A DNA stretch of 64,000 nucleotides from an uncultured bacterium (GCA_902761145.1 CACWJA010000002.1:124001-188000); one strand, 5' to 3'. Positions 3,430 through 32,849 are shown, counted from the stretch's first letter. Made by a program: numbers and translations. The notes: generated by a model not told the origin, from the letters alone.

Positions 3430-3458
3430 TTGACATTTTGTATGAAGTGTGGTATAAT
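3430..3458 (+). promoter_or_regulatory. Promoter of tandem paralogue 1
   Basis: TTGACA at 3430-3435 and TATAAT at 3453-3458 with a 17-nt spacer, in the context AAGTGTGGTATAATTA. About 40 nt of leader follows, then the Shine-Dalgarno sequence AGGAGGG before ATG 3507. Confidence 0.85.
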
Positions 3459-3506
3459 TATAGTGCAGGCTTCGACCTCGTATATTAACTTAGGAGGGAT
3501 CATTTA

Positions 3507-4118
3507 ATGGTCAATATTTCAGAGAAAACAGTTATTCAGATGATGACGGAAAGACAATTCGATAAGCTTATCAAACTTCTTGACACCATCGGGCTGAACG
3601 GCGACGGTTTGGCACCCTACACACCCGGCACAAAATACCTGACACAAATAACGTTGAGTACCATTGCCGCGATGTGCAATGTCTGCAAAGTCCCCGTAGA
3701 TGTGCAGGAACAGTTAATCAAAAGATTGGCTTGTTGCTGCGACATATTTCCTTTGTTACGCTTGATTAACATCTCGGTAAATATCGTGTCCAACGATGCG
3801 GCTCTACCCGAAGATATCAAACTGTTCTTCATTCGCATGGGGAGAGAACATCCCAAAGCCCCCAATAGCGACATGCTTCGCAGGGTTCAGAACAGGCTCA
3901 GTAAGCTTACCGGCGATGAAGCAAGAGCAGTACTAAGCTTTTTGGCTCGAGGTGAGGAAATGACATCGCTCAGTGTCATGTACAATGCCAACATCCTGCG
4001 TCTAGCATACTACCATACAGATCTTCAAGCAGGTATGCTGTTTGCCTTTATGGCGAGTTGCCTGCATGAGCCCATCAATCCCATGCTCAAGACATTCGAA
4101 GAGATTTTCGGCAGTTGA
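3507..4118 (+). CDS. Tandem family paralogue 1, unknown function (203 aa)
   Basis: I do not recognise this family. The protein looks helical and soluble, with no signal peptide or clear membrane segment. It shares a pattern with the next three units. The N-terminus has a leucine-rich helix followed by a turn (FDKLIKLLDTIGLNGDG). A Cys-rich signature lies near residue 77 (LACCCDIFPLLRLI). The C-terminus is the most conserved part (VMYNANILRLAY, then LFAFMASCLHEP). The start is set by AGGAGGG 7-8 nt upstream. It has its own promoter and terminator, so it is a single-gene cassette. The repeated cassette layout suggests duplication and divergence of one ancestral gene. Function is not inferable; a small adaptor, antitoxin-like or effector role is only speculation. 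Confidence 0.8.
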   Translation: MVNISEKTVIQMMTERQFDKLIKLLDTIGLNGDGLAPYTPGTKYLTQITLSTIAAMCNVCKVPVDVQEQLIKRLACCCDIFPLLRLINISVNIVSNDAALPEDIKLFFIRMGREHPKAPNSDMLRRVQNRLSKLTGDEARAVLSFLARGEEMTSLSVMYNANILRLAYYHTDLQAGMLFAFMASCLHEPINPMLKTFEEIFGS

Positions 4119-4132
4119 TCACTCCGCAAACT

Positions 4133-4158
4133 ATCCCCCTCTCTAAGAGGGGGATTTT
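4133..4158 (+). terminator. Rho-independent terminator
   Basis: ATCCCCCTCT and AGAGGGGGAT form a perfect stem followed by a T run. Confidence 0.9.
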
Positions 4159-4166
4159 ACTAATGA

Positions 4167-4195
4167 TTGACATTTTATACGAAGTGTGGTATAAT
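4167..4195 (+). promoter_or_regulatory. Promoter of tandem paralogue 2
   Basis: TTGACA at 4167-4172 and TATAAT at 4190-4195, 17-nt spacer. The segment from -35 through the leader is nearly a copy of the one before paralogue 1, including the GGTTTCGGCCTTGTAT-like leader and AGGAGGG. Confidence 0.85.
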
Positions 4196-4241
4196 TATAG
4201 GATAGGTTTCGGCCTTGTATTTTTATTTAGGAGGGATTGCC

Positions 4242-4796
4242 ATGCTGGTAATCGGAAGAGATACGTTACACAAAATTATCTCGGAGAACGACGCAGAAAG
4301 CCTAAAAAAAATTTTCGACGCTGTTGGATTTGATGGACAGAATGATTGTAGCTATAATTCCTTCAATAGCGCCACCATTCAAACTATTCTAGTCATTGCG
4401 TCATCGTCGGCCCGCGAAAACACACTTTCTGACGAGATGGCCCATCTTTTGATAAGCCGCCTCGCGATAAGCTGCGATATCTTTAGTTTTCTGGAATTCA
4501 TCGTCTACGATACAGAGACCAAGACAGCAAACTACGATGCCATACAACACATGCTGAAGGAAGCGTTGGCCAGCAATACATATTGCGATCGTGTCAGCAC
4601 TATGATCGGTCGGCTTCACGAGAAGACATTTCACGAGATGGCTATGTTTATCATAGATAGCGATAGAGTCTCTATGCTAAGCCTATGTTTTAACGCGCCA
4701 ATCATGCAGTACGTATATGATCATGAAGTCGTAGCTCGCAACCACATGTTCTTAATATGGGCAAGTACATTGTTATGGCCACGGTTAGGTGCCTGA
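4242..4796 (+). CDS. Tandem family paralogue 2, unknown function (184 aa)
   Basis: Second member of the family. Start at ATG 4242 is chosen because AGGAGGG lies 7 nt upstream; an earlier in-frame ATG at 4215 lies inside the leader conserved between cassettes. It keeps the N-terminal pattern (LKKIFDAVGFDGQND), the middle signature with one Cys (LAISCDIFSFLEFIV) and the C-terminal pattern (LCFNAPIMQYVYDH, then HMFLIWAS). The C-terminal CLHEP motif of copy 1 is lost. Sequence identity to paralogue 1 is low except at these motifs, which implies old duplication. No known domain is recognised. Confidence 0.78.
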   Translation: MLVIGRDTLHKIISENDAESLKKIFDAVGFDGQNDCSYNSFNSATIQTILVIASSSARENTLSDEMAHLLISRLAISCDIFSFLEFIVYDTETKTANYDAIQHMLKEALASNTYCDRVSTMIGRLHEKTFHEMAMFIIDSDRVSMLSLCFNAPIMQYVYDHEVVARNHMFLIWASTLLWPRLGA

Positions 4797-4830
4797 TAGC
4801 ACCACATCATACGTCGTCAACACACCTCCG

Positions 4831-4856
4831 ACGCTCCCTGCAAAGGGGGCGTTTTT
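4831..4856 (+). terminator. Rho-independent terminator
   Basis: ACGCTCCCT and AGGGGGCGT pair around a GCAA loop, followed by TTTTT. Confidence 0.85.
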
Positions 4857-4912
4857 AATGAATCTATCATGAGTAGCTAAGTTTTGTTTAACTACTCTTG
4901 ATTTAAGTAAAA

Positions 4913-5305
4913 TTGACTTGTTGCGATTTGTTCGCTCTACTTCGTCTGGTTGCCATTTCATCGAGTAGTTCTAACCTAAGCTGCACCGTTATTCCTGAGG
5001 ATGTTAAAGAACTTTTCTGCAAGACTACTGAGACTGACGGCTCAATTCCTATTGAAGCAGAGCTTCATAAAGTTCGTTGCAGGCTCAGCACATTGAACAG
5101 AAGCGCCAACATTGCACTATTACACTATCTAACGTTTGCCGATGCTATTGCCACGTTAAACGTGAGATACAATGCTAGTATTGTGCAGCTTATTTATAGC
5201 AGTGCAATTGTTTCTGGTGGATTACTATTCTCTTTAATGGCGAATTGTTTACACGAGCCCTATTCGCTTCTGGAAGAGGAGGAAAAGTTCACTATCCCCT
5301 GCTAA
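4913..5305 (+). pseudogene. Tandem family paralogue 3, N-terminally truncated (130 aa)
   Basis: This frame begins inside the middle signature (MTCCDLFALLRLVA from a TTG). It then follows paralogue 1 closely to the end: IPEDVKELF, VRCRLSTLNR, VRYNASIVQLIY and LLFSLMANCLHEP match IPEDIKLFF, VQNRLSKLTG, VMYNANILRLAY and LFAFMASCLHEP. The first roughly 75 residues are missing. The upstream stretch lacks the promoter-leader-Shine-Dalgarno block of the other copies and instead holds a short inverted repeat around 4870-4897. The terminator is kept. It is best read as a 5'-deleted copy, though a short product from TTG 4913 cannot be excluded. Confidence 0.75.
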
Positions 5306-5313
5306 ATATTTCA

Positions 5314-5342
5314 TACCCCCCTCTGTCGACGAGGGGGTTTTG
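5314..5342 (+). terminator. Rho-independent terminator
   Basis: ACCCCCCTC and GAGGGGGT pair around TGTCGAC, followed by TTTT. Confidence 0.88.
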
Positions 5343-5390
5343 ACTAGGGTTATTCTATTGACAAAATCCTGCAGACCTCACTACGTATGA

Positions 5391-5418
5391 TTGATTTTTC
5401 TTTAGAATATGTTATACT
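5391..5418 (+). promoter_or_regulatory. Promoter of tandem paralogue 4
   Basis: TTGATT with TATACT at 5413-5418, 16-nt spacer. The leader TTGCCTTGTACTTTGAG resembles the leaders of paralogues 1 and 2 and ends in GGAGGGG. Confidence 0.65.
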
Positions 5419-5469
5419 ATAATAAGACGAGGTTATTGCCTTGTACTTTGAGATTGGAGGGGATCACTT

Positions 5470-6036
5470 ATGATGATTTCTAAAAATGACCTTTTGGAGC
5501 TATTCCGGACAGAGAACGTCTTTGACCTGGAGGTGATACTCAATGCTTTTGGACTAACAAAAGACAGCTGCATTATCTATGGATACAACCAAGGATATTT
5601 AGCAAAAGCTATTCTTGGTCTTGCTTCGGCTCACACAAGTGCTATGCCATTAAATACGGATTTCACAAACGAAATCGTAGCCCGCACGGCTTTGTGTTGC
5701 GAGGTACTCCGATTGCTGGACTTAGTGCACCTTGCGGCACCTTTGAAATTCAGAGGCGTAGATAATGCTATACAGCCAAGCATACGCCGTGCGGTTGACA
5801 ACAATGTCTGTTACAACGCAGATACCACTACAGCCATTGCACAATTGAGCGAACCTGAATTTCTTGCTTTTGTTTCTTATTTGCTTGTCAATGCCGAGGG
5901 TATAGTTTTGAGAGTAGGGTACAACTTGCCGATAATCCAGCAGATCCGTAAGTATCAGATCATTGACGACGGTTTACTTTTTAGTTACATGGCTCTGTGC
6001 CTGAGAAATACCCCCGGTCAATATCGTCCTGTATGA
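5470..6036 (+). CDS. Tandem family paralogue 4, unknown function (188 aa)
   Basis: Fourth and most diverged member. It starts at the ATG after GGAGGGGATCACTT; the next codon is also ATG. It keeps the N-terminal element (FDLEVILNAFGLTKDS), the Cys signature (TALCCEVLRLLDLVH) and the C-terminal element (VGYNLPIIQQIRKY, then LLFSYMALCL). No signal peptide or membrane span is seen. Like copies 1 and 2 it is a monocistronic cassette with its own promoter and terminator, just before the cysteine desulfurase gene. Function unknown. Confidence 0.78.
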   Translation: MMISKNDLLELFRTENVFDLEVILNAFGLTKDSCIIYGYNQGYLAKAILGLASAHTSAMPLNTDFTNEIVARTALCCEVLRLLDLVHLAAPLKFRGVDNAIQPSIRRAVDNNVCYNADTTTAIAQLSEPEFLAFVSYLLVNAEGIVLRVGYNLPIIQQIRKYQIIDDGLLFSYMALCLRNTPGQYRPV

Positions 6037-6044
6037 TCTCCCTC

Positions 6045-6067
6045 GCCCCCATTATGGGGGCATTTTT
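6045..6067 (+). terminator. Rho-independent terminator
   Basis: GCCCCC-ATTAT-GGGGGC followed by ATTTTT. Confidence 0.9.
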
Positions 6068-6099: not shown

Positions 6100-7248
6100 A
6101 TGATATATTTAGATCACGCGGCGGCGACCCCTGTGTCTGATAAAGCACTCAAGGCGATGGAGCCTTATTTTTCGCGTGATTTTTTTAATCCTAGTGCGGC
6201 ATATTTGCCCGCCAAGAGGGTGGCGGCCGATTATGAGCGAGCAAAGGGTGAAATAGCCCATGCTATAGGCGCAAAAGCCACGGATATAGTTATGACTGGC
6301 GGCGCGACAGAGGCGAATAATCTGGCTTTTACCGCTCTAGACAACCAAATGCGGAGCCTGACTGCGTCTGTCCTATATCTAGAAACTGAACATGATTCCG
6401 TGAGAGCGGTTGCCGAGAAATATAACGGCATGGCTATTCGGGTACTACCAAATGGATTGATAGACTTAGATGATTTGAAGGCAAAGATTACGGATGAAAC
6501 TATGCTAGTCTCTGCTTCTTTGGCTAATAACGAACTAGGCACCATCCAGCCAATGGCAGAAATTAGCGCAATACTAAAAAATATAAAAATAGATAGGCTT
6601 AAACGTGGAATAAAACAGCCGCTGTATCTACACTCCGACGCTTCGCAAGCTTTGAATTTGTTAGATATTAATGTTTCTAGGCTAGGAGTAGACATGCTAA
6701 CCCTGAATGCCGCAAAAGTATACGGGCCGAAAGGCGTGGGGGCACTATATGTGGCGCACGACGTAAAACTATCACCAATCAGCGTGGGTGGCGGCCAAGA
6801 ACTGGGGCTAAGAAGCGGTACCGAGAATGTGCCGGGTGCAATAGGATTCGCTGCAGCTATAAAAGAAGCGAAAGAGCACTTAAACGGCAATCGCAAGAGG
6901 TATGCCAAATGGAAACAAACATTATTAAAAGAACTACGAGATTATGAACTGATTAACAAAAAGCATACATTGGATAATTTCGTGGTCTTATGCTATAGCG
7001 GGATTGATGCGGAAAGATTGATTTATCTATTGGAGGACAGGGAAGTATATGTGGCTACTGGTGCGGCATGTGCGGCTAGCAAGGGCCAGAAATCACACGT
7101 ACTAGCTGCGATAGGACTAAGTGATGCCCAGATAGCTGGGTCGCTAAGACTTACGCTAGGTGAAACCAATGACGAGGAGCAGATACACATGGCGGCACAG
7201 ATCATTAATGAAGTAGTAGACGCCGAGAAAGAGAGAGTGCATGGTTGA
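6100..7248 (+). CDS. iscS: Cysteine desulfurase (IscS/NifS class)
   Basis: PLP-dependent enzyme that takes sulfur from cysteine as a persulfide; next to mnmA it most likely supplies sulfur for tRNA 2-thiouridine. The sequence opens with the family start MIYLDHAAATPVS and has TGGATEANN and the PLP-lysine region NAAKVYGPKG, where the usual His before the Lys is Ala. The catalytic Cys is in TGAACAAS. At 382 residues it is normal length. The TATAAT at 6087-6092 is only 7 nt before ATG and there is no Shine-Dalgarno, so the mRNA is probably leaderless. It overlaps mnmA by 8 nt, which suggests coupled expression. Paralogue choice (IscS, NifS or SufS) is uncertain. Confidence 0.9.
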   Translation: MIYLDHAAATPVSDKALKAMEPYFSRDFFNPSAAYLPAKRVAADYERAKGEIAHAIGAKATDIVMTGGATEANNLAFTALDNQMRSLTASVLYLETEHDSVRAVAEKYNGMAIRVLPNGLIDLDDLKAKITDETMLVSASLANNELGTIQPMAEISAILKNIKIDRLKRGIKQPLYLHSDASQALNLLDINVSRLGVDMLTLNAAKVYGPKGVGALYVAHDVKLSPISVGGGQELGLRSGTENVPGAIGFAAAIKEAKEHLNGNRKRYAKWKQTLLKELRDYELINKKHTLDNFVVLCYSGIDAERLIYLLEDREVYVATGAACAASKGQKSHVLAAIGLSDAQIAGSLRLTLGETNDEEQIHMAAQIINEVVDAEKERVHG

Positions 7249-8443
7249 AAAGGTTTTCGTAGGTATGAGTGGAGGGGTGGATTCCTCTGTGTCGGCTTTG
7301 CTTCTAAAAGAACAGGGCTATGATGTAGTAGGCGTTTATATGAAAAATTGGTCTAAGGATCTACCCGGCATGAAATGTCCGTGGGCAGAAGATCTGGCTG
7401 ACGCTAAGCGCGTAGCAGTAAAACTAGGGATAGATTTTGAGGTGTGGGATTTTGAGGAAGCATACCGAGAAAAAGTAGTAGAGTACATGCTGAAAGAATT
7501 TCGCGCTGGCAACACACCAAACCCGGACATAATGTGCAACCAAGAGATAAAGTTTAAATTATTCTATGAAAAAGCTATGGAACGGAGGGCAGACTATATA
7601 GCTACTGGGCATTATGCACGAGTATTTCGGCAAGAAGGGAGTACAGGCTATCTTCTTGCTCGCGCTGTGGACGAAAACAAAGACCAGACGTATTTTCTCT
7701 ACCGAATATATGATGAGGCGCTGGCACATACAATCTTTCCGATTGGCGAGATGACGAAGCCAGAGGTAAAAAAGCTGGCTGAAGAAGAAGGCCTACATAA
7801 TGCCTACAAAAAAGAGTCGATGGGAGTATGCTTTGTGGGTGAGGTGGGGATGAAGGATTTTTTGAAGGAATATATAGAGATCCTCCCAGGCGAGATTCGT
7901 GAAATTGAGAGCGAAAGGGTGCTAGGATACCACGAAGGCGTAATATTCTATACCATCGGACAGAGACACGGATTGTATCTTACCGGTATAGCAGGCGAGA
8001 TAAATGATGGACTGCCGTATTATGTGGTAAAAAAAGATATCGAAAATAATATCGTGTACGTATCGAAAAATCTAAACAATGAGCATATTTGGACAAAGCG
8101 ATTGGAACTGAAGGATGTCGTCTTGAGGGCGCAGGGCCTGGCATCACTATCCCGCTCGGGGGCGCGTCGCTCGCTCCCGTCGCCACGGGGCTCGCGCGCT
8201 ACACCTCAGTTTGCCAACTTCCGGACCCCCCTTCGCCAGGATAGTAACGCCACTCGCGCCAATAATGGAGATATCTTCGTGCGCCTTCGCCATAGAGCGC
8301 CGCTGATCCCGGCAAAAATGACACTCAGTGAGGATGGTGCCGCCACACTGGAATTCGAGAAAGAGGTAAAGCGTCCGGCGGCGGGGCAGTCGGCCGTGAT
8401 ATACGACGGCGAGATATGTCTGGGCGGTGGGATTATACAGTAA
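7241..8443 (+). CDS. mnmA: tRNA-specific 2-thiouridylase MnmA with an internal insertion
   Basis: Adenylates U34 of Lys, Glu and Gln tRNAs and thiolates it with sulfur from the desulfurase encoded just upstream. The PP-loop motif SGGVDSS is at the N-terminus, with catalytic cysteines in NPDIMCNQEIKF and MGVCFVGE, plus the DQTYFL tRNA-binding region. The C-terminal beta-barrel is split by roughly 40 residues rich in Arg, Ser and Pro (from LSRSGARRSLPSPRG to ATRANN). Reading resumes at GDIFVRLRHRAPL. The insertion coincides with a GC-rich inverted-repeat element at about 8144-8246 and keeps the frame. Total length is 400 residues against about 360-370 usually. Confidence 0.93.
   Translation: MVEKVFVGMSGGVDSSVSALLLKEQGYDVVGVYMKNWSKDLPGMKCPWAEDLADAKRVAVKLGIDFEVWDFEEAYREKVVEYMLKEFRAGNTPNPDIMCNQEIKFKLFYEKAMERRADYIATGHYARVFRQEGSTGYLLARAVDENKDQTYFLYRIYDEALAHTIFPIGEMTKPEVKKLAEEEGLHNAYKKESMGVCFVGEVGMKDFLKEYIEILPGEIREIESERVLGYHEGVIFYTIGQRHGLYLTGIAGEINDGLPYYVVKKDIENNIVYVSKNLNNEHIWTKRLELKDVVLRAQGLASLSRSGARRSLPSPRGSRATPQFANFRTPLRQDSNATRANNGDIFVRLRHRAPLIPAKMTLSEDGAATLEFEKEVKRPAAGQSAVIYDGEICLGGGIIQ
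8144..8246. repeat. GC-rich palindromic element inserted in frame in mnmA
   Basis: Starts with ACTATCC and ends with GGATAGT, a perfect inverted pair extended imperfectly inward by G5/C5-6 blocks. The base composition (CGCGTCGCTCGCTCCCGTCG) is unlike the rest of the gene. It encodes an Arg/Ser/Pro-rich stretch with no counterpart in MnmA proteins. Confidence 0.6.
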
Positions 8444-32189: not shown

Positions 32190-32849
32190 ATGATTAAATT
32201 TACGATTATAACACTATTCCAAGAAGCTCTAGAACCATACCTTAAGACTTCAATGATGTGGAAGGCTACCGAAAAAGGCTTGGCCGAGTATAATTTTGTA
32301 AATTTGAGGGAGTTCGGCCTGGGGCCACATAGGTCTGTGGACGATACGCCATATGGTGGCGGAGACGGAATGTTGCTGAGGTGCGAACCGGTTTTTACTG
32401 CCATCGAGTCCGTGAAAGATAAAGACCCTACCGCGAAGGTAATTATTCCAACGCCAGTAGGAAAAACTTGGAACCAAGAAATGGCACGCAATTTTGCTAG
32501 TGAGGTCAAAAACGTACATTATATTATCCTGTGTCCGCACTATGAGGGGTACGATGAGCGGATTCTATCAATCGTAGATTACAAAATATCCCTAGGAAAA
32601 TACGTGCTGACTGGAGGAGAACTGCCAGCACTTATAATTATTGACTCTGTAGTACGGCTAATCCCAGGGGTACTTGGCGGCGAAAAGTCGGCTGAAATTG
32701 AGAGTTTTTCAGACGGAGATAATCTAGAATATCCGCAGTACACTAAGCCATATGATTTTCGCGGCATGACGGTACCGGATATCTTATTGTCTGGGAACCA
32801 TGGCGAGATAGCCAAGTGGCGTGCAGAGCATAGCGGCAAAGTGATATAA
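32190..32849 (+). CDS. trmD: tRNA (guanine-N1)-methyltransferase TrmD
   Basis: Methylates G37 next to the anticodon of CCN/CUN/CGG-reading tRNAs, preventing frameshifts. The knotted SPOUT fold is recognisable by YGGGDGMLLR, HYEGYDERI, LTGGELPALIIIDSVVRLIPGVLG and LLSGNHGEIAKWR. ATG 32190 is chosen: TATAAT 32178-32183 is 6 nt upstream, and the earlier in-frame ATG abuts the -10 box. Followed 8 nt later by recG, which has its own TATAAT inside the trmD end. Confidence 0.95.
   Translation: MIKFTIITLFQEALEPYLKTSMMWKATEKGLAEYNFVNLREFGLGPHRSVDDTPYGGGDGMLLRCEPVFTAIESVKDKDPTAKVIIPTPVGKTWNQEMARNFASEVKNVHYIILCPHYEGYDERILSIVDYKISLGKYVLTGGELPALIIIDSVVRLIPGVLGGEKSAEIESFSDGDNLEYPQYTKPYDFRGMTVPDILLSGNHGEIAKWRAEHSGKVI

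Follow-up and report, generated by a model that had tools for sequence, protein, structure and literature searches.

Four diverged paralogs span positions 3430-6061 of the window (the whole 64,000-nucleotide stretch of DNA analyzed here), with copies 1, 2 and 4 intact and copy 3 truncated. We tentatively interpret the array as a set of accessory-gene cassettes encoding helical binding proteins, immunity-like or decoy in role, behind a portable and exchangeable 5' leader; our confidence is moderate in the description of the cassettes, the leader and the exchange, and low in the biochemical role. The window is part of an 872 kb genome (G000), 98% complete, of a Saccharibacterium, a very small bacterium of parasitic type, and the named relatives with a gene of this family are 'Candidatus Saccharibacteria' MAGs, with two stated sources, roe deer omasum and goat jejunum. 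A nifS-type cysteine desulfurase gene (6100-7248), followed by mnmA, lies just downstream of the array, whose features are as follows.

3430..3458, + strand: promoter of copy 1, TTGACA-17-TATAAT with extended -10 (TGTGG); 12/12 consensus positions
3459..3506, + strand: 5' leader of copy 1; hairpin AGGC-UUCG-ACCU, U-rich spacer, AGGAGG
3507..4118, + strand: copy 1, 203 aa, all-helical; AlphaFold pTM 0.83
4137..4153, + strand: terminator of copy 1, 7-bp stem and T tract
4167..4195, + strand: promoter of copy 2, TTGACA-17-TATAAT, 12/12; near-copy of the copy 1 promoter
4196..4241, + strand: 5' leader of copy 2; very few differences from that of the sister-species ortholog
4242..4796, + strand: copy 2, 184 aa; ortholog in sister species G078 93% identical, dN/dS 0.21
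4835..4849, + strand: terminator-like hairpin of copy 2
4913..5305, + strand: copy 3, pseudogene; residual -35-like TTGACTTGTT fused to the C-terminal ~130 aa codons
5317..5337, + strand: terminator-like hairpin of copy 3
5391..5418, + strand: promoter of copy 4, TTGATT-16-TATACT; 9/12
5422..5469, + strand: 5' leader of copy 4; hairpin more stable than shuffles (z -4.2)
5470..6036, + strand: copy 4, 188 aa; G078 ortholog 44% identical; AlphaFold pTM 0.82
6045..6061, + strand: terminator-like hairpin of copy 4

With copy 1 as query against its own genome, copy 3 (E 3.7e-20), copy 4 (7.8e-11) and copy 2 (6.4e-8) are recovered well above chance, so that the relatedness of the four open reading frames proposed in the initial annotation holds, even at pairwise protein identities of just 22-37%. 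The same search finds a fifth paralog between nusG and rplK (G000:C2:74165-74842, E 8.5e-6). The three intact copies share a leader that aligns without gaps over 43 columns, and a terminator-like hairpin stands 3' of all four copies, both as first described. The promoter, which had been called the same throughout, is so for copies 1 and 2, whose promoter regions form a 74-nt direct repeat (85%); that of copy 4 is different and weaker. Independent transcription units of old divergence are supported, and paralogy, cassette structure and leader conservation can all be read from the sequence. An intact cassette consists of a promoter, a short leader with a 5' hairpin, a strong Shine-Dalgarno sequence, one protein of 184-203 aa, predicted to be helical and cytosolic, and a terminator. 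The earlier suggestion of dose-tuning finds little footing, the intact leaders being nearly identical and only the copy 4 promoter clearly weaker.

Copy 3, correctly singled out as the one missing its 5' part, has no promoter, no leader and none of its first ~72 codons. Instead TTGACTTGTT, which in the sister species serves as the -35 region of the following cassette, is joined directly to the C-terminal codons; copy 1 at the equivalent position reads TTGGCTTGTTGC. The junction repeats the TTG-CTTGTTG that occurs inside copy 1, and copy 3 looks like the product of a deletion between such short matching sequences.

The locus also differs in G078, in which there are only two copies, orthologs of copies 2 and 4. 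The block from 4166 to 4922 is 94% identical to G078, and dS for copy 2 is 0.145 as against 0.90 for nifS and 0.97 for mnmA in the flanks; identity to G078 is 44% for copy 4, 84% for nifS and 92% for mnmA. In the copy 2 promoter 10 of the 11 informative sites match copy 1, and in the leader eight of nine match the sister ortholog (Fisher p 9e-4). In the simplest reading the copy 2 body is a recent transfer, with a crossover or gene conversion around 4200; the same pattern would arise if copy 1 had converted the copy 2 promoter. The dS values show recent exchange of copy 2 with the sister species. The window copies and the two sister-species copies form one group in the tree (support 94/82), a local expansion, and the row of genes appears to have been reshuffled between the species. 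Reshuffling of this kind is typical of genes in an arms race.

By iterative profiles, 25 of the 174 genomes in the genus carry the family (14 of the 110 good ones), at 1-5 copies per genome, and so does one sister genus, with up to five copies; profile searches of class, family and phylum samples found no members outside these two genera. The family is therefore not confined to the array from which it was described. Single-copy genomes are common among the carriers, and this, together with the variable copy number and the two-copy sister locus, agrees with the initial view that the copies are not subunits of one complex. The nifS-DUF1846-like gene interval holds several subfamilies in different genomes and in either orientation. 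Both genera also use a second site, beside genes for VanZ and an HdeD-like membrane protein, and the two locations have the look of recurrent accessory sites. Other paralogs sit near rplA or nifS. As a separate observation, positions 8131-8257 of the window hold a GC-rich repeat of ~125 bp, in frame inside mnmA and present also in the sister species' mnmA, with five matches in its own genome (three long, two partial). Palindromic elements within coding sequences are known from Rickettsia, and the mnmA repeat resembles that idea.

Alignment gives a family-wide signature, F(N/S/T)xPI...LF(A/S)YMAxxL, which is the general form of the YNxxI...LFxxMA ending noted at first. Copies 1, 3 and 4 carry the C-C-[DE] signature, and copy 2 has S-C-D instead; in most of the wider family C-C-[DE] is missing, and the signature is local to the array. 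Searches of Pfam, NCBIfam, PHROGs and PADLOC revealed no family common to the members and a PDB sequence search gave marginal hits only; the family is, as initially supposed, previously unrecognized. Isolated weak hits to Cas5d (0.001), phrog_27318 (0.0013) and YxzE (0.008) each came from one of 26 members and are regarded as fortuitous. Viral contig searches with copies 1 and 2 and with one close relative group returned no match and thus give no sign of a phage gene.

AlphaFold models of copy 1 (pLDDT 85, pTM 0.83) and copy 4 (83, 0.82) are confident, all-helical and in mutual agreement. Foldseek searches with both against PDB and viral models gave no match at E <= 0.001, and the best VIA-align scores (Z 5.0 for copy 1 and 5.7 for copy 4, over 61-102 residues) are to unrelated proteins. 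Most conserved columns belong to the hydrophobic core, none holds a near-invariant polar residue, and no conserved catalytic residues were found; given these columns and the agreement of the two models, the family proteins are predicted to be binders rather than enzymes. The pI lies at about 4.1-5.9 for 41 members out of 43; G026a (9.2) and copy 1 (6.8), which is near neutral, fall outside this range, so not every member is acidic. Inspection of the N-termini by eye showed neither a signal peptide nor a membrane segment. Being mostly acidic and without conserved catalytic residues, the proteins look like cytosolic binders. Ortholog dN/dS values of 0.07-0.47 (0.21 for copy 2, and 0.07-0.18 in an orthologous group elsewhere) indicate real genes under constraint and show purifying selection; all are below 0.5, with no sign of positive selection. 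In some members (L021, L029, L030, L007, L018) the C-terminus is an acidic stretch and then a Cys/His/Gly-rich, SlyD-like tail, which suggests that these few relatives bind metal.

The layout of the leader is the same in both genera: a -35 element and TATAAT about 17 nt apart, then, after 5-12 nt, a hairpin, followed by a U-rich spacer, AGGAGG and ATG, which places a conserved, covarying hairpin near the inferred transcription start of the mRNA. Among 31 mostly diverged family leaders the mean z against shuffles is -1.5 with a Stouffer value of -8.6, a sum that is optimistic since the leaders are related; 16 control leaders with similar promoters give -0.5 and -2.0, some of these having hairpins too. 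The stem covaries, with 96% of cells paired and four double changes. The leader was modeled from the gapless core and extended by covariance-model alignment, as MAFFT by itself misplaced the hairpin's 5' arm; model R1 was built from five core leaders and R2 from 13 rows, and matches are counted as independent when they lie outside both sets. The copy 1 leader, one of the five R1 training leaders, scores 51 bits against R1 (E 3e-11 in its own genome), and the three window cassettes, all in the training set, score E 2e-14 to 2e-10 with the covariance model. The next match in this genome precedes a relA/spoT-like gene (L115 around 1500, E 0.09 to 0.03), and Rfam yielded nothing near gathering score for the leader.

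With only three cassettes matching strongly in their own genome, the leader was first taken to be specific to the helical family. A search of 170 genomes of the genus ruled this out, as matches outside the training set precede both family members and unrelated small genes, including those for a 102-aa protein (2e-6), an 84-aa protein (8.5e-6), a signal-peptide protein (1.5e-4) and a Cys-rich pair (G119, 1e-4; G002, 3e-3). Nine of ten non-family products behind the leader have no Pfam family, and an exact TATAAT is correctly placed at 14 of 25 non-family sites compared with 1.3% of random positions. These unrelated genes and the enrichment of TATAAT indicate that the leader is a portable expression module, placed by the lineage before unrelated orphan genes as well. 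Its role is probably in mRNA stability and efficient translation, 5' hairpins commonly protecting mRNA (PMC7509114), and a promoter and leader sequence held in common would allow cassettes to be exchanged, lost or fused by recombination. High expression, mRNA stabilization and binding are in this scheme the inferred functions, and the identity of the bound partner is speculative.

Several further orphan genes were seen beside these elements. The Cys-rich ~210-aa proteins of G119 and G002 are mutually homologous (L200, L205), and a NADAR-domain gene (Pfam E 2e-26) has a leader-like 5' region (L203, G128:C5, leader match 32483-32528). A second unrecognized family of small proteins (~160 aa, 'HYELE') adjoins the helical family in both genera (L105 5613-6116, L100 6162-6647), and its G152 gene carries the helical-family leader. 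In the sister genus a helical-family gene has next to it several tandem copies of a further orphan family (MG[IV]YF..., ~200 aa; L094 365-4059).

Two relatives, G001 and G009, have a C10 tract near codon 35 of the family gene that breaks the frame (L007 1489-1498 and L010 1489-1498). C9 in place of C10 would restore the TPPHF motif of the relatives, both halves being otherwise open, and phase variation of these two genes by C10 slippage is predicted as a possibility. The window copies have no such tract, and other hits of the pattern in the genus fall mostly in unrelated sequence, so such tracts also arise by chance. G355 has a third frameshift close to this codon, at a G5 run, and it may be plain mutation.

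The leader could alternatively act as a transcription attenuator or translational switch, in which the hairpin and U-rich stretch terminate early or the CCU arm pairs with AGGAGG, rather than as an enhancer of expression. The minimum-energy fold does pair CCU with the Shine-Dalgarno sequence in the leaders of copies 1 and 2 and of the sister species, and two weak leader-model matches are terminator-like (L206, after a tRNA end, and L192). Several stems, however, lack CCU (AGACUU/AAGUCU, GCG/CGC) and would be unable to mask the site, the U tract often lies apart from the stem, and the hairpin is the part that is kept, leaving a switch a rather unlikely function. A broader account of comparable, doubtful standing is a lineage-specific system in which one portable promoter-hairpin leader drives many unrelated small orphan proteins, their cassettes swapped between species at the leader and some members switched on and off by C-tract slippage, with the helical family as its most expanded payload.

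For the proteins themselves, an immunity-type or decoy binder fits best, the genes being tandem, diverged, exchanged and independently expressed and their products mostly acidic and non-enzymatic. Such binders would most likely act on protein partners, whether incoming or endogenous, by neutralizing them or serving as decoys for them, much as orphan immunity arrays do, and the array has the diverged, independently retained small paralogs and the evidence of recombination and exchange that mark tandem or orphan immunity arrays. Against this reading weigh the C tracts and metal-like tails of relatives and the dN/dS values without positive selection. Frame-breaking tracts are more usual in surface or host-interaction genes. 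Immunity and antitoxin families in Pfam, NCBIfam and PADLOC, including Imm and SUKH, gave no sequence match, and no toxin partner was identified near the array.

Exported effectors directed at an actinobacterial host, with several versions kept to match host variation, a form of the alternative small effectors of the initial annotation, are the second-best fit and on balance unlikely. Cultivated Saccharibacteria are epibiotic (PMC10633639), and the patchy distribution, multiple copies, fast divergence (copy 4 as compared with nifS and mnmA) and possible ON/OFF tracts in two relatives would all suit this role. The N-termini, as read by eye, and the mostly acidic, cytosolic-type composition speak against the term 'effectors', although export may be by a non-Sec route, and no secretion genes were recognized in the flanks read. 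A mostly acidic cytosolic binder fits immunity or decoy at least as well as it fits an exported effector. Less probable still are regulatory or housekeeping-type adaptors, for instance to RNA polymerase, ribosome or metal-handling partners, drifting as accessory paralogs with no role in conflict. The paralog between nusG and rplK, those near rplA or nifS, the metal-binding-like tails of a few members and the purifying selection are in keeping with adaptors, but about 85% of the genomes of the genus lack the family, and its rapid divergence and recent exchange are not those of housekeeping genes. Ordinary decay of old, functionless tandem duplicates would accommodate the copy 3 pseudogene and the frameshifts in two relatives, but is highly improbable given the low ortholog dN/dS, the conserved leaders and the open frames of copies 1, 2 and 4.

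A good part of a Saccharibacterial genome lacks annotation, and the common leader offers a sequence handle for lineage-specific small genes that homology cannot connect; the leader-bearing genes also supply candidates that can be tested for a part in the epibiotic lifestyle. The sister-species exchange, with dS six-fold below the flanks, suggests that new variants are selected for. Should the C-tract prediction prove true, it would be the first slippage-type switch described in Saccharibacteria, according to a limited literature search.

Slipped-strand contingency genes carry simple sequence tracts in coding sequence, and the G001 and G009 genes, each from one genome per species, are like them in that C10 breaks a frame that C9 keeps open; the window copies differ in having no tract. 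The all-helical folds recall alpha-solenoid or HEAT-type scaffolds, with which the N-terminal helices align locally at Z 4-6, although the match is weak and partial and there is no hit to a Pfam repeat family. The tandem esaG and tipC T7SS immunity paralogs of Firmicutes recombine at shared blocks, and the array is similar in its tandem, non-identical small paralogs and in loss, gain and mosaics through shared-block recombination (PMC9484751). It differs in that the clearest shared block is the promoter and leader rather than coding sequence, promoter and terminator are separate for every intact copy, no cognate toxin was identified nearby, and the protein is unrelated by library search. The orphan immunity genes of recombinase-associated interbacterial defense clusters are likewise fast-diverging small binders without an adjacent toxin, and their products act through an acidic patch (PMC12247911); acidic character is frequent in the helical family too, whereas here no recombinase was recognized beside the array, there is no SUKH match, and the phylum is different. 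The leader itself is like the 5' stem-loop stabilizers of recA in Acinetobacter and vacA in Helicobacter (PMC7509114) in placing a 5' UTR hairpin upstream of a strong Shine-Dalgarno sequence. It is unlike them in that stabilization is here a presumed function, and in that a single leader design is found in front of many unrelated orphan genes of one lineage.
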